Below, one piece after another: positions 26,065-39,152 of a DNA stretch of 64,000 bases. How positions within the stretch are numbered: the first letter of the stretch is position 1; the number at the start of each line of letters is the position of its first letter. Origin of the DNA: Alphaproteobacteria bacterium (GTDB lineage Bacteria > Pseudomonadota > Alphaproteobacteria > Micropepsales > Micropepsaceae); the NCBI GenBank assembly GCA_025361185.1, contig JANYAR010000061.1, positions 1 to 64,000 on the forward strand. The letters are read 5' to 3'. The position numbers and the translations under genes are program-made. Under the pieces are notes generated by a model. It had not been told where the DNA came from and made no database searches. It saw nothing but the letters and a program-made list of their open reading frames with translations.

Positions 26065-27930
26065 GTGAAACTGCATCTCAGCCTTTGCGCTGCCAGCCTG
26101 GTGCTCACCTGTGCCGTATTCGCCCAGGCTCGCGACACCGATTATCGCTATCCGGGCGCCGATGCGGGCGCCACGCGTTATTCCCCCTTGACCCAGATCA
26201 ACGCCAAGAATGTCGGCCGCCTCAAGCAAGTCTGGCGCTACGATCTGAAGCCCGATAGCGAGCTGCAAAACACGCCCATTGTGGTGGGCGGCGTGTTGTA
26301 TGGGGTGGGCAGCGGCAAGGTGGTTGCCCTGGACGCGGCGACGGGGGCGGAAAAGTGGGTGTTCACGCCGCAGCTGCCGCAAAAATCGCGCGCCGGCTTC
26401 TTCGACCGCGGCGAAAGCTGGTGGAGCGACGGTCAGCAAAGCCGTCTGTTGGTGACGGCCTCCAACTTCGTCTATTCGCTGGATCCCGTCACCGGCAAGC
26501 CCGATCCCGCCTTCGGCGATGGGGGCCGCATCGATCTCAACGACAATCTGCGCGGACCGGCGTCCGAAAATTACGTCCGCATGGGCGGAGCGGTGAATGT
26601 CTGGCACGACCTGTTCATCACCTGCGGCGAGGTCGGCGAGCAGACCCCTGCCTCGCCCGGCGATATCCGCGCCTGGGATGTGCATACCGGCAAACTGATC
26701 TGGACCTTTCACACTATTCCCCATCCCGGCGAGCGCAATGCCGAGACCTGGGCCGCCGATGCCTGGAAGACGGCGGGCGGCGCCAATTCCTGGGCGGCCA
26801 TGACGCTGGATGAAAAGCGCGGCCTGTTGTTCGCCGCCACCGGATCAGCATCGGACGATTTCTATGGCGGCGGACGCCCCGGCAAGAATCTCTACAGCGA
26901 CAGCCTGCTGGCGATCGACGTCAAGACGGGTAAAATGCAGTGGTATTTCCAAGCCGTGCATCACGATGAGTGGGACAATGACTTCGCCTCCTCGCCCGTG
27001 CTGGTCACGGTTACGCGCAATGGCAAAAAGATCGATGCCGTCGCCGCCACCAACAAGACAGGCTTTGTCTATGTCTTCGACCGGGTGACCGGCCATTCCC
27101 TGTTCCCGATCGACGAGGTGCCCGTGCCGCCAGCCACCGCGCCGGGCGATACCGCCTGGCCGACCCAGCCGCGCCCCCGCCTGCCCCCGCCCTTGTCGCG
27201 CCAGACCATGACCGCGGAGGATCTCACCCAGCGCACACCGGAAGCCAACAAATGGGCGCGGGAGAAATTCGCCACGTTTCTGAACGGCCCGATGTTCACC
27301 CCGCCCGCCTACAACCAGGAAACCGTATCGCTGCCTGGTTTTTCGGGCGGCAATGAATGGGGCGGCATGACTTTCGACCCGCGGCTGGAGTATCTGTTCG
27401 TCAACACCGAGAATGTGATGTGGACCACGGCGGTGATGGATCGCAAGGGGGCACCGCCCCGCGGAGCGGAAGCCGCGCAACTGGCCGGCGCCCGTTCCCG
27501 CTACACCTTTTCCGGCTACAACAAGTTCAAGGATCCCGACGGCTATCCGGCGACCGCCGCGCCCTGGGGCCATCTCACCGCCATCGATCTGAAGACCGGC
27601 CAGTTCGCCTGGCGGATTCCGTTCGGCGAATATCCCGAACTGGTGGCCTTGGGGCTCACCAACACCGGCAGCGAGAGCTATGGCGGGGCCGTGGCCACCG
27701 CCAGCGGGCTACTGATCATCGGAGCGACGGATTTCGACCGCAAGCTTCACGCCTTCGACAGCAAGACCGGCAAGCTGCTCTGGGACACAGTCCTGCCCTA
27801 TGCCGGCAACGCCACCCCGATCACCTATATGGCCGGGGACAAGCAGTATGTGGTCATCGCCGCCAGCACCAACCACGACCACAAGGCGCCAAAGGGCAGC
27901 GCCTATGTGGCCTATGCGCTAGGGGATTAG
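26065..27930 (+). CDS. Exported PQQ-dependent dehydrogenase (glucose-dehydrogenase-like)
   Basis: 621 residues. The start is GTG at 26065, behind GGGGG and directly before a signal peptide (KLHLSLCAASLVLTCAVFAQA); the frame is open further upstream but not signal-like. It is an eight-bladed quinoprotein propeller: DTDYRYPGADAGATRYSPLTQI, repeated ALDAATGAEKW, AIDVKTGKMQW, AIDLKTGQFAW and AFDSKTGKLLW, and VHHDEWDNDF near the PQQ site. No membrane domain or heme is present, so electrons must go to a separate carrier. It probably oxidises a sugar or alcohol in the periplasm. It converges on the RraA-like gene across a hairpin-rich gap and may feed the enzymes beyond it. Confidence 0.9.
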   Translation: MKLHLSLCAASLVLTCAVFAQARDTDYRYPGADAGATRYSPLTQINAKNVGRLKQVWRYDLKPDSELQNTPIVVGGVLYGVGSGKVVALDAATGAEKWVFTPQLPQKSRAGFFDRGESWWSDGQQSRLLVTASNFVYSLDPVTGKPDPAFGDGGRIDLNDNLRGPASENYVRMGGAVNVWHDLFITCGEVGEQTPASPGDIRAWDVHTGKLIWTFHTIPHPGERNAETWAADAWKTAGGANSWAAMTLDEKRGLLFAATGSASDDFYGGGRPGKNLYSDSLLAIDVKTGKMQWYFQAVHHDEWDNDFASSPVLVTVTRNGKKIDAVAATNKTGFVYVFDRVTGHSLFPIDEVPVPPATAPGDTAWPTQPRPRLPPPLSRQTMTAEDLTQRTPEANKWAREKFATFLNGPMFTPPAYNQETVSLPGFSGGNEWGGMTFDPRLEYLFVNTENVMWTTAVMDRKGAPPRGAEAAQLAGARSRYTFSGYNKFKDPDGYPATAAPWGHLTAIDLKTGQFAWRIPFGEYPELVALGLTNTGSESYGGAVATASGLLIIGATDFDRKLHAFDSKTGKLLWDTVLPYAGNATPITYMAGDKQYVVIAASTNHDHKAPKGSAYVAYALGD

Positions 27931-27935
27931 GAGCG

Positions 27936-28033
27936 GTTTGCCGAAGGCAAACGAAATGGTCCAGCGGACCATTTCGAGCGACTAATGCCGCGAGCTAAGG
28001 CGAGCGGCCGGGTGGGTCAATTGCGACCCACCC
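27936..28033. terminator. Triple hairpin between convergent genes
   Basis: Three consecutive perfect stems: GTTTGCC-gaa-GGCAAAC (27936-27952), CGAAATGGTCC-agc-GGACCATTTCG (27952-27976) and GGGTGGGTC-N6-GACCCACCC (28010-28033). They lie between the stops of the PQQ dehydrogenase (+) and the RraA-like gene (-). They probably end transcription on both strands, although there is no clear T-run. Sequence between the second and third stems recurs near 59.26 kb. Confidence 0.6.
27976..28012 (-). repeat. Dispersed repeat, type 2, copy 1
   Basis: On the minus strand this reads CCCGGCCGCTCGCCTTAGCT followed by CGCGGCATTAG. The plus strand at 59254-59286 has the same with a few changes. It is probably a REP-like intergenic element. 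Confidence 0.5.
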
Positions 28034-28039
28034 CGCTCC

Positions 28040-29002
28040 TCACTTCGGCGCACCCGGAACGCCTTCGCTGCGGCGCTTGCGCTCCGCCAGAATGGCGTTG
28101 AACTCTGCCCGCGCCATCTTCAGCTTGGATGGGTTAGCGTTGATCCACTGAACGAAGGCATCATACTTGGCGGTGTTCCAGCCGCCCTCGAACGAGCCGC
28201 CATTCTTGCCCGAGCGGTTGAGATCGAAGTTGAACGCATCTTCCAGATTGATGAATTCGGCATGGGCCACCGCGTCTTCCGCCAGATAGGCCGGAATGAA
28301 GATCACGCCATCGTTCTTGGCCAGCACCAGATCGCCGGGCAACACCGTGGCGCGGCCGATGCGGATGGGGGCATTGATCGAGGTCAGCGTCATGTCCTTC
28401 CAGGCGCTGGGATCATAGGCGCGGTAAAGACCGTTCATATTTTCCAGCTCGCGATTTTCCTCCGCATCGCGGATACCGGCATCGAAGACAAAGCCGGTAT
28501 GGGAATGGGTGGCGATGCCCGACCCCAGGTTGGAGCCGATCAAGGTGCCTTCGACGATCTTGCCGAAGCCGTCGGCGACATACATGTCGCCGATCTGCAG
28601 TTCGGCGATGGGCCAGCTGTTGTTGCCGCTGACCCGGCCTTCACGTTTGCCCTCGGCGGCAATGGCGGTCCACATATCCGAGCGCAGCGGCATATACTGC
28701 GCCGTCAGCGCCCGCCCGGCGAAGGGCTTTTCGGGGTGCAGCATCTGGAAACCGGTGTCGAACTGAGCATTAAAGCCCTTGTCGCGCAGATAGTCCCACA
28801 AATCCTCGATCGAGACGTCCACCACCCGCCCCAGCAAATTGTCGGGAATCTTGGGGCGGCCATCGGCAAAGCGCTCGCCTTTCCATTGCGACGTATAAAA
28901 GGTCATCTGTTCGGGGGTCTGCTTGACCTGCGCCATGGCAGGCGGCGTGGCAATGGCCAGGGCGATGCACCCCAGCAGGACGAGTTTCAAGTTCTTCAAC
29001 AT
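28040..29002 (-). CDS. Exported RraA/HMG-aldolase-family protein
   Basis: 320 residues with a clear Sec signal (LKLVLLGCIALAIATPPAMAQ). The RraA-fold core has IGDMYVADGFGKIVEG, GSGIATHSHTGFVFDAGIRDAEE (Arg-Asp of the class II pyruvate-aldolase/RraA site) and VLPGDLVLAKNDGVIFIP. RraA relatives are RNase E inhibitors or 4-hydroxy-4-methyl-2-oxoglutarate aldolases; an exported form fits only the aldolase or another small-molecule role. It is last in a string of exported enzymes and could cleave a 2-keto-3-deoxy acid to pyruvate plus an aldehyde; that is inference. The cupin gene starts 29 bases upstream. Confidence 0.85.
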   Translation of the reverse strand: MLKNLKLVLLGCIALAIATPPAMAQVKQTPEQMTFYTSQWKGERFADGRPKIPDNLLGRVVDVSIEDLWDYLRDKGFNAQFDTGFQMLHPEKPFAGRALTAQYMPLRSDMWTAIAAEGKREGRVSGNNSWPIAELQIGDMYVADGFGKIVEGTLIGSNLGSGIATHSHTGFVFDAGIRDAEENRELENMNGLYRAYDPSAWKDMTLTSINAPIRIGRATVLPGDLVLAKNDGVIFIPAYLAEDAVAHAEFINLEDAFNFDLNRSGKNGGSFEGGWNTAKYDAFVQWINANPSKLKMARAEFNAILAERKRRSEGVPGAPK

Positions 29003-29031
29003 GGGTTCAATCTCCTTGGAGCGGTGTGAGG

Positions 29032-29493
29032 CTACGGGCGCGTCTTGACGACGGCGTAGCGGATGGTTTTTCCGGGCGCGAGGATCATGCGGTGCGGCGT
29101 ATTCACGGGGACATAGACATAGTCTCCGGCATGCACCACGACTGTCTTGCCGCCGGAAATGCCGCTTCCCCGCGTTTCGCCGCTGCTGACGGTGCGCGGA
29201 TTCTCGATGGTGCCGCCCAGGATCATGGTCGCCTCGCCGGCCTGAACGAAAATATCGTCGTTCCAGGCTGCGTGGCGTTCGGCTTCGCCGCTTTTTTCAC
29301 GCGCTGTAATCATGGCGAGCCCGTTGTCGCGCCGCGAAAGGATAGACTGGGAATAGAGCCCCGATGCGTCGGGTTTGAGCTTTTGCTCCGCCGAGGGAAT
29401 GAACTGGTGGCCGCCCGGCTTGGCGGGCTGGGACTGCGCGGCTGGCGCGATGAGGGCTGTGCAGAAAAGTCCGAGACAGAGAATTTTCTTCAT
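29032..29493 (-). CDS. Exported single-cupin protein
   Basis: 153 residues, signal MKKILCLGLFCTALIAPAAQS. One cupin fold: WNDDIFVQAGEATMILGG, then VHAGDYVYVPVNTPHRMILAPGK. The metal-binding set is only partly visible: His in the PHR motif is present, but the first HxH pair is replaced by WND. It may be a periplasmic binding or isomerase-like protein for a sugar acid. It is in line with the RraA-like gene on the same strand. Confidence 0.8.
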   Translation of the reverse strand: MKKILCLGLFCTALIAPAAQSQPAKPGGHQFIPSAEQKLKPDASGLYSQSILSRRDNGLAMITAREKSGEAERHAAWNDDIFVQAGEATMILGGTIENPRTVSSGETRGSGISGGKTVVVHAGDYVYVPVNTPHRMILAPGKTIRYAVVKTRP

Positions 29494-29549
29494 GATGTTT
29501 CCTTTCGTCCGCTTATGCTTGCGGCGTGTTGTCTGTTGCCACCCGGCCG

Positions 29550-29624
29550 TCGCTTACGCTCCGGCGTTCGACGCTCAAATCGATCCACTGGATCGATTTG
29601 ACCGGCTTCGCCGGTCGCGTCTCA
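29550..29624. repeat. Dispersed palindromic repeat, type 1, copy 1
   Basis: Begins CGCTTACGCTCCGGCGTTCG and ends GCCGGTCGCGTCTCAC. Inside it are two perfect hairpins, AAATCGATCC-act-GGATCGATTT (29577-29599) and GACCGGC-ttc-GCCGGTC (29600-29616). It lies directly after the stop of the enolase-like gene, and a divergent copy lies at 59388-59480, after the EF-G-like gene. It may also serve as the terminator. Confidence 0.65.
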
Positions 29625-30884
29625 CCCCCACCAACTCTCCCCCGGCGCCAGGTGTGCCTTGACGACGTCCGGATTGAGTTCGATGCCCAGGCCTGGCTTA
29701 TCCTGGATGACGAAATAGCCGTCCTGAAAGAACGGGCCTTCATGCGTGACCATGTCGAAGGTCCATTGATCGCGTCCGCCCGCCAATTCATGGACGCGGA
29801 AATTGCGCACCGATGCCGCGGCATGGGCCGACGCGATGGTGCCCACCGCGCTGGCCGGATTGTGGCATGCGGTCCAGATGCCATAGAGGTCGGCCAGGTC
29901 GGAAATGCGCTTGGCCTCGAACAAGCCGCCCGACTTGGGAATATCAATATGCACCCCGGCGCAGGCCTGGCGGATGATCAGCGGCGCGAATTGCGACAAG
30001 CCATAGAGATTTTCGCCAGTGCAGAGCGGCACAGTGGTGGCGCGCGATACCCGCTCCATGGTCTCCACATTCTCGGGCGGGGTGGCGTCCTCCACCCACA
30101 ACGGATTCACATGCTCGACCGCGTTGCAATATTTGATCACGTCATTGACGGAGTATTTCCAGTGACATTCGATCGCCATGTCGATGTCTGGGCCGATCTC
30201 CTTGCGCACGCGGTCCATGCGGTCCACCAAGCGGCGAATGTCCCGGTTGGTCAATTCGTTGGTGTAGCGGTCATGGCCCGGCTCCTTGAAATCCGGGTCG
30301 GCGGTGGTCGGGACGGAATCCCCTTGGAACTTGAAGGCGGTGAAGCCGGACGGATTGTGAGCGATCGCGTCGGCCGCCTGCCGCCCCCAGGAGGCGGGAT
30401 CGGCCGGATTGGGGTCCGGCGCCTGCAGGGTACGATAGAAGCGCACCTTGTCGCGGAAGCGCCCACCCAGAAGATTGCATACCGGCGTCTGCAACAACCG
30501 CCCCGCCAGATCCCATAGCGCAATCTCGATCCCCGAGGCGGCATGCATGGTAAGCCCGCCGGTGGCGCCATAGCCGCCATTGAGGAACAGCAGTTTGGTG
30601 TAAAGCTTGACCACGTTGATGGGGTCTTCGCCGATCAGTTGTTCCTTGAACCGCTTCAGGGTGATGTCCTTGGCGCCGGGCCCCCAATAGCCCTCGCCGA
30701 TGCCATGCACGCCCGCATCAGTTTCGATCTTGAACAGATTCCAGTCCCAGGTGGGCCCGCGCACGATCATCACCTTGACGTCGGTGATCTTCACCTTTTT
30801 GGTGAGATAGGCGGCCTTGGCCTGAAACGGCAGGGCGAAGCACGATACCGCTCCCAAATTGGCGAGCAGTTGACGGCGATCCAT
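29622..30884 (-). CDS. Exported enolase-superfamily (mandelate racemase/sugar-acid dehydratase) protein
   Basis: 420 residues starting MDRRQLLANLG, a Tat-like or Sec signal (MDRRQLL...CFALPFQAKA). The N-terminal capping domain is followed by a barrel with the acid ligands at MAIECHW, WVEDATPPEN and CTGENLYG, and the general His in TACHNPASAVGT. This is the pattern of D-galactonate/gluconate-type dehydratases of the MR subgroup. Export is unusual for this superfamily, whose sugar-acid dehydratases normally work in the cytosol. It is adjacent to a bicupin gene (23-base gap). A role dehydrating an aldonate made by the PQQ dehydrogenase and lactonase is inferred. Confidence 0.88.
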   Translation of the reverse strand: MDRRQLLANLGAVSCFALPFQAKAAYLTKKVKITDVKVMIVRGPTWDWNLFKIETDAGVHGIGEGYWGPGAKDITLKRFKEQLIGEDPINVVKLYTKLLFLNGGYGATGGLTMHAASGIEIALWDLAGRLLQTPVCNLLGGRFRDKVRFYRTLQAPDPNPADPASWGRQAADAIAHNPSGFTAFKFQGDSVPTTADPDFKEPGHDRYTNELTNRDIRRLVDRMDRVRKEIGPDIDMAIECHWKYSVNDVIKYCNAVEHVNPLWVEDATPPENVETMERVSRATTVPLCTGENLYGLSQFAPLIIRQACAGVHIDIPKSGGLFEAKRISDLADLYGIWTACHNPASAVGTIASAHAAASVRNFRVHELAGGRDQWTFDMVTHEGPFFQDGYFVIQDKPGLGIELNPDVVKAHLAPGESWWG

Positions 30885-30907
30885 CGTGAAATCCTCTCTT
30901 TGACTTG

Positions 30908-31849
30908 TTAGTTGCCCGGCGGCTGATCGGTCTGGAAGTAGTGAACCTGACCTTCCCTGTTGCGGGGCGTCATCGCCAGGCGCGTGCAGCTGCCGATATT
31001 GGGATGACAGGTGGCGCGGTGCCAGCGTTCGTTGGTGGCCTGGATCACATCGCCCACCTCGCCCGTCACCAGCGGCTCGCCGGTGATCAGCACGTCGAGC
31101 TGGCCTTCCAGCACCACCCAGGCTTCCACCATATTCTCGTGGAAATGGCCCCAACTGGTGGACGGCGGCAGTACCGCCACGTTGCCGCTGCGGATGACAT
31201 GGGCGGCGGTGTGACCGTCAAAGGCAAAGTCGCGGCTCTTGCCGCCGCCGGCGGCATAGGCGTTGAAATCCAGAAAGGGCTGGTTGGGCTCTTCATAGCC
31301 GCCGGTCGAGGTGATCTTGGCCTTGGCATAGACCCAGCCCTTGATCGGCGCAGGCGTTTCGTTCTCCGGATAAGACGGCACCTGGCCCGCCGGCGTGGAG
31401 CGATAGAACACCACCGGCTCGGTGCCGGTATTTTCCATGCAATAGGAAAGCCGGGGCGCCACGTCGAACATATACCCCTTGGTGGCGGTGAAGGGCTGCT
31501 GGCCGTCGATGGTGATCTTGGCCTGGCCGCTATAGACCCAGCCGAACACCCGGTCGTCGGCATAGAACATGCACTTGGTCTTCTCGCCCGGCGCCATGCT
31601 GATGTAATGGCCGTCATAGTCGCGGGTCAGCAGCACCGCCTGATCCCAGCTTTGCTTGCCGGCATGGGCCTTGAGAATGTCGGCAATATGCCAGATCGGC
31701 TTGTTGGGCTTGGTATAAGGCGACTCGGGCGTCTTGTGCGCCGCCCAAACGATGCGGACCGGGCCCTTTTCGCCCGCCGCTTGCGCAAACACCGGCGTTG
31801 CCGTCAGCGCCAGCCCCAATGCCATCAAACCAGATGCCACTACCCTCAT
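30908..31849 (-). CDS. Exported bicupin protein
   Basis: 313 residues with a signal peptide (MRVVASGLMALGLALTATPVFAQ). Two cupin folds: the first around GHYISMAPGEKTKC and the second around TSWGHFHENMVEAWVVLEGQLDV, whose GHFHEN...E pattern contains likely metal ligands. Similar bicupins act as isomerases or dioxygenases. It is first in the bicupin/enolase pair on the minus strand. The substrate is unknown. Confidence 0.85.
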   Translation of the reverse strand: MRVVASGLMALGLALTATPVFAQAAGEKGPVRIVWAAHKTPESPYTKPNKPIWHIADILKAHAGKQSWDQAVLLTRDYDGHYISMAPGEKTKCMFYADDRVFGWVYSGQAKITIDGQQPFTATKGYMFDVAPRLSYCMENTGTEPVVFYRSTPAGQVPSYPENETPAPIKGWVYAKAKITSTGGYEEPNQPFLDFNAYAAGGGKSRDFAFDGHTAAHVIRSGNVAVLPPSTSWGHFHENMVEAWVVLEGQLDVLITGEPLVTGEVGDVIQATNERWHRATCHPNIGSCTRLAMTPRNREGQVHYFQTDQPPGN

Positions 31850-31948
31850 AACACTCTCCCCTGCCGGTATTTTTTTGTTGCCGGGAGATTGCAGCGGCGG
31901 GAGAGACGCGTCAACGTCGCAGCCAACAGAAGATGACTGGGAGGATTT

Positions 31949-32656
31949 ATGAGCAGGTGCAGCATCAAAATCGCCGCGCTTTTGGGCGTGTTGGCAATTT
32001 CCGCCAGCGGCGCTTGGGCGCAGGATCAGACACTCTGGAAGTTCAACAACCTGTCACGCATCGGCGGACAGGCACCCAAGGTGGAAGGCGCGCCCCAGCT
32101 GGTGGACTCGCCGGTCGGAAAGGCGGTGCAATTCAACGGCGCCGACACCGCCCTGTTTTTCTCCTCCCGCCCGCTGGTGGGCGCCAAGACTTTCACCATC
32201 GAGGCGATCTTCCGTCCCGAAGGCGGCGCCTTCGAACAGCGCTGGATGCATATCGCCGAGACCGATCCCAAGACCGGACTGGACGCCAATCCCGGCGGTA
32301 CCTCCGATCCCAATCCGCGCTTCATGTTCGAGGTGCGCGTGAAGGATGGCCAATGGTATCTGGACGCCTTCGTCAACAGCGCCGCCGGCAGCAAGGCGCT
32401 GATCGACCCGAAAAAACTGCATCCCGTCGATCAGTGGTACGCGGTGGCGCAGAGTTATGACGGCAAGACCTACCGCTCCTATGTCAATGGCGTGCTGGAA
32501 AATGAAGCCGAGGTCGCGTTCACGCCCCATGGCGCGGGCCACATGATGGTGGGCGTGCGCATCAACCATGTGAACTGGTTCAACGGCTCGGTGGCGCAAG
32601 CGCGCTTCACCACCCACGCGCTCAAGCCGGAAGAATTCCTGAAAGTGCCAAAGTAA
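31949..32656 (+). CDS. Exported LamG/concanavalin-like domain protein
   Basis: 235 residues; GGGAGG precedes the ATG. Signal ending ISASGAWAQ, then one LamG-type jelly roll (AVQFNGADTALFFSSRPLVGAKTF, FEQRWMHIAETDP, WYAVAQSYDGKTYRSYVNGVLE, GVRINHVNWFNGSVAQARF). It is probably a periplasmic or surface sugar-binding protein. It is the only plus-strand gene in this block and converges on the lactonase gene. Confidence 0.85.
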   Translation: MSRCSIKIAALLGVLAISASGAWAQDQTLWKFNNLSRIGGQAPKVEGAPQLVDSPVGKAVQFNGADTALFFSSRPLVGAKTFTIEAIFRPEGGAFEQRWMHIAETDPKTGLDANPGGTSDPNPRFMFEVRVKDGQWYLDAFVNSAAGSKALIDPKKLHPVDQWYAVAQSYDGKTYRSYVNGVLENEAEVAFTPHGAGHMMVGVRINHVNWFNGSVAQARFTTHALKPEEFLKVPK

Positions 32657-32666
32657 TTTTCAACGG

Positions 32667-33776
32667 CTATTTCAGCTCGAGAAAATACATCCCGCCCGGC
32701 GTGTTGATCTCGCCGGTGACGCCGGTGGCGGTCACGTGCCCGCTTTTCTTGTCGACCTTGAACTCGGTGACATTGCCGCCATTCTCATTGGCGGCGAAGA
32801 ACCAGTTGCCGCTGGGATCAAAACGGATATTGCGTGGGGTGCGCCCGCCCGACGGCACATTCTCCCGATCGCTCAGCATCCCGCTCTTGGGATCGATGGC
32901 AAAGACCGCGACACTGTCATGGCCGCGATTGCCGATATAGAGATGGTGGCCGTCGGCGGAGATGATGATCTCGGCGGTGGTGTTGTGCGCCTTGGCGTCC
33001 TCGGGCACCGTGCCGGTCACCTGAATCTCTTTCAACGTGCAGCCATCGATGGTGTAGACGCCGACTTCGGAATCGGTTTCGTGATCGACATAAAGGAACT
33101 TGCCGTCCGGTGACATCTGCACCCGGCGCGGCCCCGCCCCGGCATGGGTGTTCACATACGGCGTCTCGCACGGCGTGAGCAACGGCGTTTTGGCGTCGAA
33201 GTGATAGCTATAGACCCGGTCCAGCCCCAGATCGGCGATGAACATGAATTTGTTGTCCTTGCTGAACTGGATGCCGTGCTGCTTGGGGCCGGGCTGCTTG
33301 GACGACAGCGGCTTGCCGGTGTGCTGGTCGACATAAAAGGCCTCGCCCAGCTTGCCGTCCGGCTCCAGTCTGTAGGCGGCCAGCGAGCCGTTGGTGTAGT
33401 TCACCGTCACCGCCACGCGGCCAGACGGGTCCACCACCACCTGGTTGGGCTGGGCGCCATGCGAAGACGTCTTGTTCAGAAAGCTCAGCGCGCCGGTCCT
33501 GGGATCGATGCGATAGGCGCTGACGCCGCCGGCGGTTTCCCAATTCACGCTGTAGAGCGTCTTGCCATTGGGCGCGATCCACAGATGCGCCGCTTGCGGC
33601 GCCTCCGCCATCAGCCCCAAAGGCGCGATGCGGCCGTCCTTGCTGTCGAACGTCCAGGCGTAAATACCCTTGGAAGTGCCGGCGGTGTAACTGCCGACAT
33701 ACATAATGTAATGCGCGGCGAAAGCGGGTGCGGGCGCCAGCAGCGCGGCCAGTAGGAATGGCACAAAGCGGCGCAT
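32667..33776 (-). CDS. Exported lactonase (6-phosphogluconolactonase-like, seven-bladed propeller)
   Basis: 369 residues, signal MRRFVPFLLAALLAPAPAFA. Lactonase_7-bladed family: YVGSYTAGTSKGIYAW, NQVVVDPSGRVAVTVNYTNGS, HGIQFSKDNKFMFIADLGLDRV, GAGPRRVQMSPDGKFLY, GGRTPRNIRFDPSGNWFF. Members hydrolyse sugar lactones or carboxy-muconolactones; the export and the position next to a PQQ dehydrogenase and cytochrome c point to opening an aldonolactone in the periplasm. The ATG overlaps the stop of the cytochrome gene by one base, so it is in the same operon. Confidence 0.9.
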   Translation of the reverse strand: MRRFVPFLLAALLAPAPAFAAHYIMYVGSYTAGTSKGIYAWTFDSKDGRIAPLGLMAEAPQAAHLWIAPNGKTLYSVNWETAGGVSAYRIDPRTGALSFLNKTSSHGAQPNQVVVDPSGRVAVTVNYTNGSLAAYRLEPDGKLGEAFYVDQHTGKPLSSKQPGPKQHGIQFSKDNKFMFIADLGLDRVYSYHFDAKTPLLTPCETPYVNTHAGAGPRRVQMSPDGKFLYVDHETDSEVGVYTIDGCTLKEIQVTGTVPEDAKAHNTTAEIIISADGHHLYIGNRGHDSVAVFAIDPKSGMLSDRENVPSGGRTPRNIRFDPSGNWFFAANENGGNVTEFKVDKKSGHVTATGVTGEINTPGGMYFLELK

Positions 33777-34645
33777 CAGTCGCGCTCCGGTCCGCCAGGC
33801 ATCCGGACCTGCGGCTTTTCGGCTGCGGGCGGCGTGCCGAGCCTGGTGAGATAGGCCAGCAGATTGTCGAATTCCGCCTTGCTGAGCTTTTTGTCGTAAT
33901 CGGTGGGCATCAAGCCTTTGGGCTCATAGACCACCTTCACCTTGGCACGGTCGAACAAATGCAGCTTTTCATCCATACCCATCACCTGCAGGGAGAAGCT
34001 GTCCTCATTGCGCAACAATCCGCGCACCGTCTTGCCATCGGCGGTGGTAACCCGCACCACCGGCGACACCGGCAGCGGCACGAGATAATGCGGCTGCGCC
34101 CCGCCCGGACCGTAGACACGATGCTGCTCCTTGGTCAGGGCGTCGATGATGGAGTTGGTCTTGCGCAAACCCGCCAGATTGGAAAGATCAGGGCCGATGA
34201 TGCTGCCGCGGCCCTTGACCATGTGACAGGAACCGCAACCGCCCTTGCCCCAGAACACCGCCTCGCCCGCCGCCACATCGCCCGGCGAAGGCGCGTCAAT
34301 GGCGGTGCCGCGCAGGCCCTTCACATAGGCGGTGACCTTCCAGATCTGATCGTCGCTCAGCTTGGTGCGATGCGCCGGCATCACGGTGGCGGGAATGCCG
34401 TTCTTGACGGCATCGAAAATCTCCGCGTCGGTCCGCTTGGCATAAGAACGGCCGGGAAGCGCCAGGCCGGGTCCGATCTCGCCCGCCGCGCCGTTGGCGC
34501 CATGGCAACCGGTGCAGGTGCCGTTATACAGCCCGCGGCCTTCCTCGACCGCCGCCGGATTGTTGGTATAGGGATTGGCCGCTGTCTGGGCGTGCGCCGC
34601 GGAAGCGGCGGCAGCGAAAGCCGCGATGAGAAGAACGCGCTTCAT
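33776..34645 (-). CDS. Exported diheme cytochrome c, partner of a PQQ dehydrogenase
   Basis: 289 residues starting MKRVLLIAAF, signal to AHAQ. Two heme motifs: CTGCH (about residue 43) and CGSCH (about residue 137), with distal Met candidates in AHRTK/PATVMPAH. The C-terminal region has a PQQ-dependent-alcohol-dehydrogenase-associated domain (TADGKTVRGLLRNEDSFSLQVM, GLMPTDYDKKLSKAEFDNLLAYL). It takes electrons from the quinoprotein to the respiratory chain. The start overlaps the stop of the PQQ dehydrogenase by four bases and the stop overlaps the lactonase start by one: a tightly coupled three-gene operon. Confidence 0.92.
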   Translation of the reverse strand: MKRVLLIAAFAAAASAAHAQTAANPYTNNPAAVEEGRGLYNGTCTGCHGANGAAGEIGPGLALPGRSYAKRTDAEIFDAVKNGIPATVMPAHRTKLSDDQIWKVTAYVKGLRGTAIDAPSPGDVAAGEAVFWGKGGCGSCHMVKGRGSIIGPDLSNLAGLRKTNSIIDALTKEQHRVYGPGGAQPHYLVPLPVSPVVRVTTADGKTVRGLLRNEDSFSLQVMGMDEKLHLFDRAKVKVVYEPKGLMPTDYDKKLSKAEFDNLLAYLTRLGTPPAAEKPQVRMPGGPERD

Positions 34646-36186
34646 TTCGCACCGCCTTCCGGCAAGCCAAAGCTGAAGACATTGCTGCTGGAGACGATAG
34701 CGACATATTGCATGCCGTCCACGCTGTAGCTGATCGGGCTGGCGGTGATCACATCGCCGGTGTTGAAGTGCCACAGCACCTTGCCGGTCTTGGAATCCAG
34801 CGCGGTGAACTGGCCGAATTCCTCCGGACTGAAGACCACACCGCCGGCGACCGACATCAACCCCGGACCGTAATGGTGCGAGGTGACCTGCTCATAGTCC
34901 CACACTTTCTTGCCGGTGAAGGCATCGAGCGCCCGGGTGAAGAGCTGCCACGTCTTGCCCTCTTCCGGACTTTCCAGATAGCCGGTGCCGGCATAGTTGC
35001 GGGCGGTGTCGCGGATGTTGATGCCGCAACCTTCCTGGGCCACGAAATAGAACATGTGCAGCTTGGGATCATAGGTGGGCGACGGCCAGTTCGTGGCGCC
35101 TGCCGTAGAGGGGCACGTCGTTGTTCCCTTCACCGACGGATCATGCGCCGGATCGGCAATGGGATGGCCCTTGTCGTCCCAGCCTTTCAGCCAGTCGACT
35201 TTCTTGACGAACTGGGTGGCCTGAAGGAATTCGCCGTTGGTGCGGTCGAGAATGTAATAGAAGCCGTTGCGGTTGGCCTGCAGCACCATCTTGCGCGGCT
35301 TGCCCTTCCACATCCCGTCCACCAGCACCGGCATTTCCAGCGAGTCATAGTCGTGGGTGTCGTGCGGCGTGTTCTGGTACCACCATTTGAGCTTTCCAGT
35401 GTCGGGATCGAGCGCGACGATGGCGTCGCTGTAAAGATTGTCGCCCTTGCGCCCCTCGCCCGCCCATTGCGGCTCGGGCTGGCCGGTGCCGTAATAGATC
35501 AGGTTCAATTGCGGATCGTAGGAACCCGACACCCAGATCGGCATGCCGTCGGGCTTTTGCCCGCCCCAGCTCGCCAGCGCAGGATCGTCATCGGCCGGAA
35601 TGGGCGACCAGCTCCACAGATATTTGCCGCTGTCGGCATCATAGGCCTGGATATAGCCATGGGGCTGGTTGCCGCTGACGATAAGCTTGCCATGCGCGAT
35701 CAGCGGCGCCTGGCCCGCCAGTTGCAATCCGTCATGCACCGCCACATCCCACAGCACACTGCCATTGCGCGCGTCCAGCGCCAGCAGACGCTTGTCGGAG
35801 GTGGTGACAAACAGTTTGTTGTTCCAGAAGCCGGTGCCGCGCTGCGCGCCGGTGGCGATGGGCTGGCGCTGAAACTGCCAGATGATATTGCCGCTGCGCG
35901 CGTCAATCGCGTCGATGCGGTTATATTGCGAGATATACATCACGCCATTGGCGACGATAGGCGTGGCCTCGAGATTCTTCTGGTCGGTCATGTGATAGAC
36001 CCATTTGGCCGCAAGCCGTCCGACATTGGCAGCAGTGATCTGGGTGAGCTGCGAATGGCGCTGGGCATGATTCTGGCCGGAATAGGTCAACCAGTTCTTG
36101 GGATCAGCCAAAGGATCGGGGGCCTGCGCCCAAACTGGGGCAGAGGTCAGCAGCAAAGCTGACAGAAGTAGGCATCTTGGGCCCAT
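34642..36186 (-). CDS. Exported PQQ-dependent alcohol/sugar dehydrogenase
   Basis: 514 residues; ATG 36186 (MGPRCLL) is preceded by AAGGGG seven bases away and is preferred over an upstream TTG. Signal to APVWAQ. Eight-bladed propeller of the methanol/ethanol dehydrogenase type: YSGQNHAQRHSQLTQI, IDARSGNIIWQF, GDNLYSDAIVALDPDTGKLKWWYQ, HDTHDYDS at the active site, NRNGFYYILDRTNGEF, ALDSKTGKVLWHFNTG. It lacks its own C-terminal heme domain, which fits the separate cytochrome gene just downstream. It is first in the dehydrogenase-cytochrome-lactonase operon; the product would be an aldehyde, acid or lactone. Confidence 0.93.
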   Translation of the reverse strand: MGPRCLLLSALLLTSAPVWAQAPDPLADPKNWLTYSGQNHAQRHSQLTQITAANVGRLAAKWVYHMTDQKNLEATPIVANGVMYISQYNRIDAIDARSGNIIWQFQRQPIATGAQRGTGFWNNKLFVTTSDKRLLALDARNGSVLWDVAVHDGLQLAGQAPLIAHGKLIVSGNQPHGYIQAYDADSGKYLWSWSPIPADDDPALASWGGQKPDGMPIWVSGSYDPQLNLIYYGTGQPEPQWAGEGRKGDNLYSDAIVALDPDTGKLKWWYQNTPHDTHDYDSLEMPVLVDGMWKGKPRKMVLQANRNGFYYILDRTNGEFLQATQFVKKVDWLKGWDDKGHPIADPAHDPSVKGTTTCPSTAGATNWPSPTYDPKLHMFYFVAQEGCGINIRDTARNYAGTGYLESPEEGKTWQLFTRALDAFTGKKVWDYEQVTSHHYGPGLMSVAGGVVFSPEEFGQFTALDSKTGKVLWHFNTGDVITASPISYSVDGMQYVAIVSSSNVFSFGLPEGGAK

Positions 36187-36260: not shown

Positions 36261-36296
36261 GCCGCGCCATCTTCAAGCCGCGCCATCTTCAAGCCG
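36261..36296. repeat. Short tandem repeat after the flavoprotein gene
   Basis: GCCGCGCCATCTTCAA occurs twice in direct succession (36261-36276 and 36277-36292) with the first bases of a third copy. It overlaps the stop of the flavoprotein gene and may have arisen by slippage. Confidence 0.7.
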
Positions 36297-37422
36297 CTAA
36301 GGGCACCTTGCCGCTCAGCCGCGCACCCAGGCCCAACAGCCGGGGCGCCGCCGCCAGCACAGCCCGGCTGGCAAGCCGGCCGGTGTCATTCATCGCCAGA
36401 TGGGCGAACAGCGAAGCCGCCCGGATGCGGGGCGCGAACTGGCGCTTCCAGGCCTGCGCATAATCCTGCGCGCGGCCTTCGATCAGCAGCCTGGCCAGCA
36501 GGCCAGATGACTGGATCGCCATGCTGATGCCCTCGGCGATCACCGGATGCGCTTCACCGGCGATATTGCCGGTGAAAAAGACGCCGTCCGCGTAACGCCT
36601 GCGAATACCGGGATGGATGGGCCCGGTGGAAAGAAACTCGCCTTCCAACCGGGCACGATACAGCGCCTCATGCACACCCCTGGTGGTGGCCATGATGTGC
36701 GCCAGCACCGCCTGGGCCGCCTTGCCGCCATGGCGGGCGCGGGCCTTTGCCAGCGCGTCGCGCCGGATGCAGCAGGACAAAGACGTGCGGCCTGCATCGC
36801 TGTGCACCAATCCGCCATAGCCGCCGGGAAAAGCCAGCAGCGGCATCAGGCCCGCCGGCAAATTGCTATCCTGGAAATGCGCCTTGAAGGCGAACAGGTC
36901 GGACGGCGCGGCACGGCGGCTATTCACCGCGAAAGGTCCTTTGGCATTCCAGGAACCGCAGGCCGCGATGACCACCGGGGCCGTGAGCGTCCATCCACCG
37001 TCCAGGCGGCAGATGCTGCTCTCGCCTTCCCGCCACAAATCTGAAACTTCGGCCGGCTGAAACAACACCGCGCCGGCATCCCGTGCCGCATCGCGCAGCA
37101 TCAGGTCCAGATACTCGCGCCCCAAGGCACGGCCCCAGACTTTTTCCTCCGGCGCGGTCAGCTTGGCAGAGCCCGCATAGGCACCCACGCGCGTCACCGG
37201 CGGCCCCGCGGCGGCGGAAAATGCATCTGCGACCCCGCAGGCCTCCAGCACGGGCATGGTGGTGGCGGACAGGAATTCGCCGCACACCTTGCGGCGGGGG
37301 AATTGCGATTTTTCCACCAGCGCGACAGCCCAGCCGGCTCGCGCCAAAAGCCGCGCCGTAGACGAACCCGCAGGCCCCGCGCCGATAATGATGGCGTCAT
37401 AGCGCATGGGATTGGAACACAT
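36289..37422 (-). CDS. FAD-dependent oxidoreductase (geranylgeranyl-reductase/hydroxylase type) of type III PKS operon
   Basis: 377 residues. Rossmann FAD motif YDAIIIGAGPAGSSTARLLARAG at the N-terminus, RRKVCGEFLS, and a late GNIAGEAHPVIAEGISMAIQSS motif (GD-type FAD site, here GN). The ATG at 37407 (MRYDA) is equally possible; either way the start lies inside the end of the methyltransferase gene. In the srs type of phenolic-lipid operon of Streptomyces (PKS, methyltransferase, flavoprotein) the flavoenzyme oxidises the methylated resorcinol. The same order here supports that role. Confidence 0.88.
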   Translation of the reverse strand: MCSNPMRYDAIIIGAGPAGSSTARLLARAGWAVALVEKSQFPRRKVCGEFLSATTMPVLEACGVADAFSAAAGPPVTRVGAYAGSAKLTAPEEKVWGRALGREYLDLMLRDAARDAGAVLFQPAEVSDLWREGESSICRLDGGWTLTAPVVIAACGSWNAKGPFAVNSRRAAPSDLFAFKAHFQDSNLPAGLMPLLAFPGGYGGLVHSDAGRTSLSCCIRRDALAKARARHGGKAAQAVLAHIMATTRGVHEALYRARLEGEFLSTGPIHPGIRRRYADGVFFTGNIAGEAHPVIAEGISMAIQSSGLLARLLIEGRAQDYAQAWKRQFAPRIRAASLFAHLAMNDTGRLASRAVLAAAPRLLGLGARLSGKVPLAA

Positions 37423-38068
37423 GGGTAAAGGGCAAGGCGCCGCGCTCGTTCATTTTCCAATGTCCGCCCTTCGGCCACAGCGCCGACAGCTCCTGCCCAC
37501 GGAAGCCAGCCTGCACGCTGGCCACCGCATCGTGACGGGTGACATGGTTGGCGCCCAGCGCAAACACCAAGCGCGCGCCCAGCAGCGCCAGCGCCGAACG
37601 CCGCGGTTCGCAGGCAACAAAGCCCTTGGCCTGCGCCGACACCAGCGCCAGCAGCCGCGCCAGCGCCGCATCGTCCAAATGATGCAGGAACAGGTTGGCA
37701 ATAACGATGTCGGGTTTGACTTGCGGTAAACTCTCGAAGATATCGCCCCGCACGGTCTCGCAATGCCAGCCCTGCGCCGCAAAGCCTGCCCGCGTCTCGC
37801 CGCTCACGATATCCTGGCGATCAAGAATGACGGCCCTGACGCCGGGCCAGCGATTGGAGAGCCGCCTGGCCAGGCCCAGCAGAAAGCGTCCGTCGCCGCC
37901 GCCCAGATCGGCCAGCAGCGTTGGAGCCGCAAAGCCGGCCAGCGCCTTCGCCATGATCGCGCCCTGGAACATCACCCCATTGATGCGCGCCAGGTCGCGG
38001 CGTGAGCGGATGGCACCGGGATCACCGGGGGGAAGAAAATCCAGAATCTCCGGGGTCAGCACACGCAC
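37397..38068 (-). CDS. SAM-dependent methyltransferase of type III PKS operon
   Basis: 223 residues. Class I fold: LLADLGGGDGRFLLGLARR (SAM motif I), AVILDRQD, RGDIFE, ANLFLHHLDDAAL, ACEPRRS. It starts two bases from the PKS stop and its own end overlaps the flavoprotein start, so it is in the same operon. Likely O- or C-methylation of an alkylresorcinol-type product; which one cannot be told. Confidence 0.88.
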   Translation of the reverse strand: MRVLTPEILDFLPPGDPGAIRSRRDLARINGVMFQGAIMAKALAGFAAPTLLADLGGGDGRFLLGLARRLSNRWPGVRAVILDRQDIVSGETRAGFAAQGWHCETVRGDIFESLPQVKPDIVIANLFLHHLDDAALARLLALVSAQAKGFVACEPRRSALALLGARLVFALGANHVTRHDAVASVQAGFRGQELSALWPKGGHWKMNERGALPFTHVFQSHAL

Positions 38069-38069
38069 G

Positions 38070-39152
38070 TCATGCCGCCATGCGGAACATCATGGTCTCG
38101 GCCACCAGGCCCGGCCCGAACGACATGGCACATCCATTCTTTCCGGCATTTTTTCCGGCATTCCGGCCTGCCGCCGCTTCGCGCATGATCCTGTCCAGCA
38201 CGAACATCACCGTGCCCGAAGACATGTTGCCATAATCGTTCAGCACCGAACGCGAGGCCTTGAGCGCCTCGGGCGAAAGGCCAAAGGCCTGCTCCACCGC
38301 ATCCAACACCGTGCGCCCGCCCGGATGCACCGCCCACAAATCGATATCGTTGGCGCCGCCCAATATGTCGTCGCGCGACGCTGACAAGGCGGTGCGGATG
38401 GCGCCCGGCACCCCGCCGGACAGCACCATGTCGAAACCCTGCTGGCGGATATTCCAGCGGATCAGCTCTTTTGTGTCGGGCACCAGCGCGGCACGGAAAG
38501 ATTTCATCTCCACCCCTATGCTGTCGGCGCTGATCAATGCCGCGGCACAACCGTCGGCGAACAGCAGGAAGGAGAGAATTTCTTCCAGATCGTCGGTCTC
38601 GTGCAGGTGCAGGGTGCAGAGTTCCAGATTCACCGCCAGCACCCGCGCCGAAGGCTCGGAACGCACGATATGGCGCGCCAGCTTGAGCGCATTGATCGCG
38701 GCATAGCAGCCCATGAAGCCGACCATGGTTCGTTCGGTTGTGGACTTCAGTCCGCAACGCTCTATCAGCTCCAAATCGATGCCGGGCGCGGACAGGCCCG
38801 TACAGCTGGTGACAATCACATGGGTGATCCGCGAACGGTCTTCATCCTTGAGCAGCTTTTCGGCCGCTTCCACTGCGAGGCCCGGCGCGCAGGCCTCGAA
38901 CTTTTTCATGCGCACGGCCGTGTCGGGAAAAGCGCCCAGACGATAAAAGCCTTCGGTGTCCACCGCCGCGTCCTTGGCCGGTTCCAGAAACGAATAGCGA
39001 TGGGCGATGCCGCTGCGCGCCGCCATGCGCTCGAACAGCGCCTGGCGGCGGCGGTCGCCGCTCAGCATTTTCTGGCCGAAGCGCAGGAAGGTGTCGTGCA
39101 CATCATGGGGCGGCGTGGCGGTGGCGATACGGTTGATGAAGGCTTTGGACAT
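38070..39152 (-). CDS. Type III polyketide synthase (chalcone-synthase-like)
   Basis: 360 residues. Catalytic triad visible: Cys149 in GFMGCYAAINAL, His276 in WAVHPGGRTVLDA, Asn309 in NDYGNMSSGT. The rest fits bacterial alkylresorcinol/alkylpyrone synthases (TSCTGLSAPGIDLELIERCGL, LSFLLFADGCAAALI). A short AGRNAGKNAGKNG repeat near the C-terminus is unusual and comes from a tandem DNA repeat. It would extend a fatty acyl starter with malonyl units to a phenolic lipid or pyrone. It leads the PKS-methyltransferase-flavoprotein operon. Confidence 0.94.
   Translation of the reverse strand: MSKAFINRIATATPPHDVHDTFLRFGQKMLSGDRRRQALFERMAARSGIAHRYSFLEPAKDAAVDTEGFYRLGAFPDTAVRMKKFEACAPGLAVEAAEKLLKDEDRSRITHVIVTSCTGLSAPGIDLELIERCGLKSTTERTMVGFMGCYAAINALKLARHIVRSEPSARVLAVNLELCTLHLHETDDLEEILSFLLFADGCAAALISADSIGVEMKSFRAALVPDTKELIRWNIRQQGFDMVLSGGVPGAIRTALSASRDDILGGANDIDLWAVHPGGRTVLDAVEQAFGLSPEALKASRSVLNDYGNMSSGTVMFVLDRIMREAAAGRNAGKNAGKNGCAMSFGPGLVAETMMFRMAA

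Follow-up and report, generated by a model that had tools for sequence, protein, structure and literature searches.

Sugar-acid dehydratases are textbook cytosolic enzymes. In Gluconobacter and Pseudomonas, glucose and gluconate are oxidized in the periplasm by PQQ dehydrogenases; this oxidation stops at ketogluconates, and the products are taken up. To our knowledge, the known periplasmic PQQ oxidation systems contain no exported dehydratase. In the open-access literature without preprints, represented mostly by titles and the starts of abstracts, we found no report of an exported acid-sugar dehydratase or an exported RraA. One described RraA-family enzyme of sugar-acid catabolism is FlDet of Flavobacterium UMI-01, which excerpts of its description (PMC8563752) present as a dehydratase/decarboxylase that converts 2-keto-3-deoxy-glucarate to alpha-ketoglutaric semialdehyde and is inactive on KDG. 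According to the same excerpts, FlDet (237 aa) retained its initiator Met when purified from cell extract, and it is therefore not exported with a cleaved leader.

Judging from its genes, a soil alphaproteobacterium appears to export both a sugar-acid dehydratase and an RraA-family partner, and part of a normally intracellular sugar-acid breakdown may take place outside the cytoplasm. The genes lie at positions 26065-36186 of the window, the whole 64,000-nucleotide stretch that we analyzed:

26065-27930, plus strand: PQQ-type dehydrogenase (PQQ1); PF01011, 586.6 bits; GTG start; soluble, leader-bearing relative of membrane glucose dehydrogenase; accessory
28040-29002, minus strand: RraA/HMG-CHA-aldolase-fold protein; PF03737, 59.5 bits (cut-off 24.5); leader-bearing; 320 aa; core member
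29032-29493, minus strand: small cupin; PF07883; leader-bearing; accessory
29622-30884, minus strand: enolase-superfamily (MR/MLE) dehydratase of the galactonate/mannonate-dehydratase type; PF02746 and PF13378; core member
30908-31849, minus strand: larger cupin; PF07883 in two stretches; leader-bearing; accessory
31949-32656, plus strand: LamG/concanavalin-like domain protein; PF13385; leader-bearing
32667-33776, minus strand: 7-bladed propeller lactonase-family protein; PF10282, 317 bits; leader-bearing; accessory
33776-34645, minus strand: c-type cytochrome; PF00034/PF13442; TIGR02603, 72.8 bits (cut-off 68.15); leader-bearing; variable
34642-36186, minus strand: PQQ-dehydrogenase-like propeller (PQQ2); TIGR04528 'acido-empty-quinoprotein', 472.6 bits (cut-off 650); leader-bearing; variable

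The open reading frame positions of the initial annotation were borne out, and the ten consecutive genes for exported proteins that it counted come to nine. All nine match a Pfam family above its gathering score, and among them the cytochrome alone reaches a curated NCBIfam cut-off. The tightly overlapping operon that had been described is seen in the lactonase, cytochrome c and PQQ2 genes, which overlap by 1 and 4 bases, but the nine genes are not one operon, because PQQ1 and LamG are encoded on the plus strand.

Alignment of the window dehydratase with Escherichia coli DgoD placed D183, H185, E209, E235, D258, H285 and E310 at E239, H241, E265, E291, D314, H341 and E366, so that six of the seven catalytic positions are identical and the seventh is an Asp-to-Glu change. 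We take E239, E265 and E291 to be the metal ligands, H241 the beta3 His, and D314 and H341 the His-Asp dyad; with these, the protein has the full residue set of an MR/MLE acid-sugar dehydratase, and the earlier assignment to the enolase-superfamily dehydratases is upheld. Among 65 related loci, 60 of them readable (4 or 5 of the 65 sequences are gapped per column), the equivalents of His185 and Asp258 are invariant (60/60 each), His285 is kept in 59/60, and the first metal ligand is Glu in 57 and Asp in 3. The best NCBIfam match is galactonate dehydratase, with a score (187 bits) below the cut-off of 311 for that equivalog (NF010624). The commonest neighbor of the dehydratase is a cluster of large proteins read as TonB-receptor-like (14/65 loci). 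No fixed neighborhood was found in the Bryobacterales, where no other window gene scored above our thresholds.

The same protein also matches a muconate cycloisomerase model at 101 bits. Might the locus instead be an aromatic ring-cleavage set, with a muconate cycloisomerase, a cupin dioxygenase, a carboxymuconate-type cyclase propeller and RraA as the HMG/CHA aldolase? One member of the RraA fold does catalyze the final step of protocatechuate 4,5-cleavage, as stated in excerpts of PMC5065237. However, the muconate score falls below both the galactonate dehydratase score and its own cut-off (335), the His and His-Asp set is conserved, and sugar-acid genes neighbor related pairs. We consider this reading very improbable and set it aside on the NCBIfam scores and the conserved dehydratase residues.

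By a crude, home-made score, each of the nine N-termini of the set combines a basic n-region with a hydrophobic core and an A-x-A-like site. The claim that these proteins are exported is upheld as far as these leader-like N-termini go, but the core score overlaps that of controls: 14 presumed cytosolic proteins reached a maximum of 2.24, and the window dehydratase and large cupin scored 1.79 and 2.14. Comparison of orthologues gave stronger support for a dehydratase leader than the score did. The window protein begins with a Tat-type leader (MDRRQLL...AKA), and among orthologues from 65 loci in two phyla, 55 of the 57 script-readable N-termini carry RR-x-hydrophobic-x; the remaining two read RRTFF and RREFF. 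The other eight of the 65 were unreadable by script (six RR by eye, one mis-called start and one fragment). A strict hydrophobic-core test was passed by 41 of the 57 and failed by 16. With a twin-Arg motif and hydrophobic core kept in its orthologues, the dehydratase is predicted to be a Tat substrate. By eye, twin-Arg leaders occur in 5 of the 10 MR/MLE proteins of the same genome.

The RraA protein belongs to the RraA/HMG-CHA fold family, with PF03737 above its gathering score. Of the class II pyruvate aldolase motif of Pseudomonas putida HMG/CHA aldolase (Asp102/Arg123/Asp124), two residues of three are kept: R123 and D124 align with R178 and D179, and D102, which we take to be a motif residue, aligns with S157. 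The protein thus lacks the full residue set of HMG/CHA aldolase, and the aldol cleavage put forward in the initial annotation is putative. Ser occupies this position in 12/12 aligned type-A RraA sequences, and Asp occupies it in the type-B and Bryobacterales rows. Excerpts of PMC5065237 assign roles to Arg123 and Asp124 and identify Glu199 as the second acidic metal ligand of HMG/CHA aldolase. In the Glu199 column, where the aligned stretch ends, the window protein has Glu and the others have Arg, His or other residues. The score against TIGR02798 was 46.7 bits (cut-off 304.5). AlphaFold models were too poor for use, both for RraA (12 sequences; mean pLDDT 54, with nearly all of residues 78-220 below 50) and for the large cupin (7 sequences; pLDDT 38). 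The large cupin has a metal-binding-type HxH...E...H motif (H235, H237, E242 and H277) identical in 7/7 aligned sequences. A protein beside RraA in genomes G140 and G396 was considered as an HpaI aldolase and rejected, with no Pfam or NCBIfam match.

Of 96 genomes of the family, 14 carry close orthologues of both the dehydratase and RraA, counting as present a 101-aa RraA match in G452 and a dehydratase covering only residues 237-420 in G463; 82 genomes had neither, and none had only one. This co-occurrence is more than chance. The two genes are adjacent in 12 of the 14 genomes, and both are kept in G140, where ~60 kb separates them, and in G396, where each lies on its own contig. Beside the pair, at 14 alphaproteobacterial loci (three from one MAG, RYN_537), we found LamG at 9, the large cupin and the lactonase at 6 each, the small cupin at 4, PQQ1 at 3, and PQQ2 and the cytochrome at 1 each; L014, L018, L019, L021, L025, L026 and L027 end less than 5 kb from the gene on one or both sides. 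The lactonase, at an identity of at least 60%, occurred in 8 of the 96 genomes, every one of which also has the core pair. The gene set of the initial annotation therefore recurs as a dehydratase/RraA pair, but its oxidation and lactone genes are not regular companions. These data support a conserved unit in the family consisting of a catalytically plausible, putatively exported sugar-acid dehydratase and a putatively exported RraA.

Could the locus nonetheless encode a complete extracytoplasmic non-phosphorylative Entner-Doudoroff route, in which PQQ oxidation, the lactonase, the dehydratase and an RraA aldolase would release pyruvate and an aldehyde outside? Every step type is present in the window as a leader-bearing protein, the dehydratase residues are nearly intact, R178/D179 are kept in RraA, and the lactonase tracks the pair. 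However, only the dehydratase and RraA are regularly kept together, with the oxidation genes rarely conserved. When PQQ2 (34642-36186) was aligned with quinohemoprotein alcohol dehydrogenase 1kb0, the vicinal Cys pair of PQQ-dependent alcohol dehydrogenases fell in a gap, and of the Glu, Asn and Asp that are presumably the calcium ligands, Glu is Pro, Asn is Gln and Asp is kept; PQQ2 looks unable to bind PQQ/Ca normally. In PQQ1, of seven E. coli Gcd positions taken as functional residues, D466, K493, W404 and N607 are kept and H262, D354 and N355 are replaced by Gly, Glu and Gln; its TIGR03074 score is 397 bits (cut-off 832.65). Among the PQQ synthesis genes, PqqC was not found in the draft genome and exceeded its cut-off in 1 of 21 genomes searched (this one and 20 relatives), and no PqqE over the cut-off was found in the draft genome (best 56 bits versus 381). 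It is possible that PQQ comes from the environment. In addition, the window proteins include no aldolase equivalog by NCBIfam, and in two other clusters exported dehydratases sit next to genes for a kinase and a KDPG/KDPGal-type aldolase. We regard this route as quite unlikely. Accordingly, neither oxidation by a quinoprotein with its own cytochrome c nor the complete oxidative pathway of the initial annotation was sustained: PQQ2 lacks most residues of the PQQ/Ca site, PqqC and an over-cut-off PqqE were not found, and the other genes are accessories.

The genome also carries a second, distant leader-bearing pair, RraA-B/ENO-B, which shares 42% and 33% identity, respectively, with the first pair. 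ENO-B adjoins RraA-B in 10/13 genomes, and the RraA-B pair sits in a hexarate region that includes KdgD and galactarate dehydratase. At L149 of the same genome, a leader-bearing MR/MLE gene adjoins DgoA and DgoK genes without leaders. In ZG23-2, leader-bearing UxuA-type, ENO2 and RraA genes surround a KDG-kinase-like PfkB, an Eda-type aldolase and an IclR regulator. MFS genes, galactonate-transporter-like but below the cut-off, adjoin RraA in G140 and in a Granulicella MAG. Because L149 and ZG23-2 pair exported dehydratases with leaderless kinase and aldolase genes, the keto-deoxy acid may be finished inside the cell.

One potential explanation is that only dehydration is periplasmic, with the keto-deoxy acid imported for a kinase and a KDPG-type aldolase, and that RraA acts on a different keto acid, such as a hexarate-derived one, in the manner of FlDet. 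The L149 and ZG23-2 clusters, the hexarate setting of RraA-B, and the chemistry of FlDet and its inactivity on KDG (excerpts of PMC8563752) are consistent with this possibility, but FlDet as described there lacks a cleaved export leader, and no kinase or aldolase gene was recognized beside the window cluster. We hold this explanation to be possible, if doubtful.

Our best explanation overall, to which we give slightly better than even credence, is an extracytoplasmic sugar-acid unit. From the gene content, leader-like N-termini, catalytic residues and co-occurrence observed, we infer export in vivo, the substrates and each reaction as follows. The Tat-exported dehydratase would remove water from an aldonate in the periplasm, yielding a 2-keto-3-deoxy acid; the aldonate may be galactonate-, gluconate- or mannonate-like, as suggested by family membership only. 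The exported RraA would act on this acid or a related one by putative retro-aldol cleavage, decarboxylation or dehydration; characterized relatives of its fold handle keto acids with a divalent metal. The cupins, LamG, lactonase and PQQ-type proteins would be accessories with a probable role in supplying or funneling substrate through lactone opening and oxidation. Some or all of the keto-deoxy acid would most likely be imported and finished in the cytoplasm. A bolder version would place an entire non-phosphorylative sugar-acid pathway of Alphaproteobacteria and Acidobacteriota outside the cytoplasm, with exported enzymes opening the lactone, removing water and cleaving a C-C bond. Only pyruvate-size products and electrons would then enter the cell, and RraA would be a novel type of exported lyase for keto-deoxy acids; this version seems unlikely to us.

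Across the Acidobacteriota, the dehydratase/RraA pairing is loose. RraA was found at E <= 1e-80 in 9 of 297 genomes (seven at 60% identity or more and two at 46-49%), one of which has a close dehydratase. Testing 20 of the remaining 288 genomes gave no close dehydratase, only a 33% relative in one. The dehydratase is present in the three Bryobacterales genomes examined, but their RraA relatives reach only 38-42%. A dehydratase-family gene was adjacent in 2 of the 11 RraA regions inspected (8 of the 9 Acidobacteriota matches plus G477, G140 and G396), as sought by BLAST with a self-chosen panel that could miss an unlike one. In Acidobacteriaceae, RraA adjoins other leader-bearing dehydratase-family genes, ENO2 in L028, L030 and L031 and a UxuA type in L124/L146. 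The beta3 His of ENO2 is replaced by Leu in 3/3, so the DgoD mechanism of dehydration may not apply to ENO2.

A twin-Arg dehydratase conserved in two phyla, co-inherited with RraA in one family and echoed by a second pair, suggests that sugar-acid dehydration may move outside the membrane. Exported RraA proteins have been named only by fold, and the pair offers a concrete route to their function. The window dehydratase resembles E. coli DgoD and other MR/MLE acid-sugar dehydratases in domain families and catalytic positions but differs in its twin-Arg leader, in Glu rather than Asp as the first metal ligand, and in scoring below the equivalog cut-off. The window RraA shares PF03737 and the Arg123/Asp124 equivalents with HMG/CHA aldolase (PDB 3NOJ) and differs in its leader, its length of 320 aa, Ser for Asp102, and the residues at 144, 145, 147 and 195. 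Compared by description rather than sequence, and from excerpts, FlDet is likewise an RraA-family enzyme of sugar-acid catabolism, with 237 aa and an initiator Met against the leader-bearing 320 aa of the window protein. With periplasmic PQQ oxidation in Gluconobacter and Pseudomonas, the window shares quinoprotein-type proteins predicted to be exported and a lactonase-family protein.

Nine consecutive genes, all with Pfam matches above cut-off, occupy positions 26065-36186 of the window, rather than the ten counted in the initial annotation:

26065-27930, plus strand, PQQ propeller (PQQ1)
28040-29002, minus strand, RraA
29032-29493, minus strand, Cupin_2 (small cupin)
29622-30884, minus strand, MR_MLE, enolase superfamily (dehydratase)
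30908-31849, minus strand, Cupin_2 (large cupin)
31949-32656, plus strand, Laminin_G_3 (LamG)
32667-33776, minus strand, Lactonase
33776-34645, minus strand, Cytochrome c
34642-36186, minus strand, PQQ propeller (PQQ2)

The contig spans 72.5 kb of a 3.53-Mb assembly in 182 contigs. The last three genes do overlap tightly, as had been described (by 1 and 4 bases); because PQQ1 and LamG lie on the plus strand, the nine-gene cluster is not a single operon. Elsewhere in the window, positions 4377-7780 hold a gene pair resembling DUF1552-type and cytochrome/DUF1592-type proteins, which we take to be commoner in Planctomycetes and Myxobacteria.

The complete oxidative pathway proposed for this cluster was not borne out; the part supported is a conserved pairing of a plausible dehydratase with an RraA partner, both predicted to be exported. 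In an alignment with E. coli DgoD, the catalytic residues D183, H185, E209, E235, D258, H285, and E310 correspond to E239, H241, E265, E291, D314, H341, and E366 of the window dehydratase; the set is thus kept, with one Asp-to-Glu change at the first metal ligand. Across 65 related enolase loci, grouped by record title as 14 alphaproteobacterial (L014-L027) and 51 acidobacterial (L028-L078), this ligand is Glu in 57, Asp in 3, and a gap in 5, and the beta3 His (60/60), dyad Asp (60/60), and dyad His (59/60) are conserved. On the basis of the DgoD match and this conservation, the window protein should work as an acid-sugar dehydratase. Its score against the galactonate dehydratase equivalog (187 bits) falls below the cut-off of 311 and so does not single out a substrate.

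The gene set was expected to recur in other genomes, and its core does. A close RraA (63% identity or more) occurs in 14 of 96 genomes of the alphaproteobacterial family, and the dehydratase (75% or more) occurs in the identical 14; the other 82 have neither. The two genes are adjacent in 12 of the 14. They lie ∼60 kb apart in genome G140 and on different contigs in G396, and both are retained. These unlinked cases matter more than the chance of matching sets (∼10^-16), which assumes independent genomes when the genomes are not independent. The lactonase (60% or more) was found in 8 of the 96 genomes, every one among the 14, and is therefore associated but dispensable. Within the 14 alphaproteobacterial loci, several of which end near the dehydratase gene and three of which come from a single MAG, we counted RraA in 10, LamG in 9, lactonase and large cupin in 6 each, small cupin in 4, PQQ1 in 3, and PQQ2 and the cytochrome in 1 each. 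A FAD-dependent, geranylgeranyl-reductase-like protein (below cut-off) is encoded at window positions 36289-39152 with methyltransferase-like and type III polyketide synthase-like genes (both named by eye); its gene is present in 8 of the 14 loci, so the exported cluster often occupies the same place.

The partnership is firm within this family and loose beyond it. A search of 297 Acidobacteriota genomes found RraA at E ≤ 1e-80 in 9, only 1 of which had a close dehydratase, and the close dehydratase was absent from all 20 tested genomes lacking such an RraA. Many Bryobacterales carry the dehydratase, with RraA relatives just 38 to 42% identical in the three genomes tested, and a dehydratase-family gene adjoined RraA in 2 of 11 RraA regions inspected. 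Two acidobacterial genomes encode a relative of PQQ1 (∼37% identical) downstream of RraA, at a distance of ∼2.1 kb in one (L139, 10426-12561) and ∼0.4 kb in the other (L140, 9283-11409).

Are these enzymes exported? All nine proteins bear a basic n-region, a hydrophobic core, and an A-x-A-like site, in agreement with the initial annotation. Our crude leader score overlaps that of presumed cytosolic controls (top control, 2.24, versus 1.79 for the dehydratase and 2.14 for the large cupin; the other seven, 2.39 to 3.03), and we therefore base the export argument on conservation among relatives. RR-x-hydrophobic-x was present in 55 of 57 readable dehydratase-orthologue N termini from the 65 loci (the other two read RRTFF and RREFF), 41 of the 57 passed a strict hydrophobic-core test, and RR was visible by eye in 6 of the 8 that were unreadable by script. 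The presumed cleavage site is A/S-QVK in 12 of 12 aligned RraA orthologues. Five of the ten MR/MLE proteins of the genome carrying the window have twin-Arg leaders; of the other five, four do not, and for the fifth, L087, the start was chosen by eye. A leader-bearing protein of ∼365 amino acids, without a Pfam or NCBIfam match, is encoded beside the unlinked RraA gene of G140 (L147, 8676-9776), with two copies in G396 (L148, 4999-7295).

The aldolase motif is kept in RraA only in part. In the Pseudomonas putida HMG/CHA aldolase, Arg123 is essential and stabilizes the pyruvate enolate, and Asp124 binds metal (PMC5065237). Both are kept in the window RraA (R178/D179), but Asp102 is replaced by Ser157, and positions 144, 145, 147, and 195 are also changed. 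Ser157, R178, and D179 are invariant in the 12 orthologues. The window RraA could be an aldolase. Set against this reading is FlDet, an RraA-family enzyme of Flavobacterium, which converts 2-keto-3-deoxy-glucarate to alpha-ketoglutaric semialdehyde and is inactive on KDG (PMC8563752). In G544 (L138, 1156-6859), RraA adjoins genes that by eye resemble those for malate synthase and for subunits of glycolate oxidase, which points tentatively to a role for glyoxylate or glycolate.

A second, divergently oriented leader-bearing RraA/MR_MLE pair lies on contig C83 of the same genome (L091, 15798-18130; RraA 42% and MR_MLE 33% identical to the first), and its RraA keeps the Asp at the Asp102 position. 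This RraA type occurs in 13 family genomes, adjoined by its MR_MLE partner in 10. The surrounding region also encodes KdgD (425.7 bits against a cut-off of 374), galactarate dehydratase (892 against 731), rhamnonate dehydratase (759 against 393), and a putative glucarate dehydratase named by eye. Also close to this second RraA, at L091 1819-5284, enzyme kinds that are usually cytosolic carry leaders: a protein that by eye resembles RidA and matches no NCBIfam model, a PLP ammonia lyase similar to DgaE (twin-Arg, below cut-off), and an amidohydrolase (above cut-off).

Other neighborhoods bear on where cleavage takes place. Three Acidobacteriaceae loci (L028, L030, and L031) carry, in this order, the dehydratase, a second MR/MLE gene (ENO2), and RraA, all with leaders by eye; Leu replaces the beta3 His of ENO2 in all three, so ENO2 may catalyze something other than DgoD-type dehydration. 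In Acidobacteriaceae ZG23-2, RraA adjoins a leader-bearing UxuA-type protein (Pfam above, NCBIfam below cut-off). Beyond it come genes for an Eda-type aldolase (181 bits against a cut-off of 156), a PfkB protein that resembles KDG kinase but scores below cut-off, a regulator of the IclR family, and then ENO2 and a cupin. Another twin-Arg MR/MLE protein of the window's genome, in which Thr takes the place of the dyad Asp, adjoins DgoA (267 bits; cut-off, 207) and DgoK (PF05035). Both G140 and a Granulicella MAG have an MFS gene resembling galactonate transporters next to RraA, with scores of 193 and 227 bits against the 395 required. By analogy, these clusters suggest that dehydration would occur outside the cytoplasm and that the keto-deoxy acid would then be imported and split inside the cell.

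Quinoprotein oxidation, claimed as the first step, is the weakest, given the residue losses of PQQ2 and the lack of PqqC and of an above-cut-off PqqE. Aligned with the quinohemoprotein alcohol dehydrogenase 1kb0, PQQ2 has a gap at the vicinal cysteines, and two calcium ligands are exchanged, Glu for Pro and Asn for Gln; the catalytic Asp alone is kept. Its top NCBIfam match is "acido-empty-quinoprotein" (472.6 bits versus 650 required). PqqC was not found in this genome (above cut-off in 1 of 21 searched), and PqqE was far under cut-off. Compared with E. coli Gcd, PQQ1 keeps Asp466, Lys493, Trp404, and Asn607 and has Gly for His262, Glu for Asp354, and Gln for Asn355; it could work on environmental PQQ.

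The open-access literature searched yielded no published description of an exported acid-sugar dehydratase with an RraA partner. Acid-sugar catabolism in which both are relocated outside the cytoplasm, by predicted export, appears to be a new variant, and its dehydratase differs from DgoD in a Glu for Asp at the first metal ligand that is unusual yet conservative.
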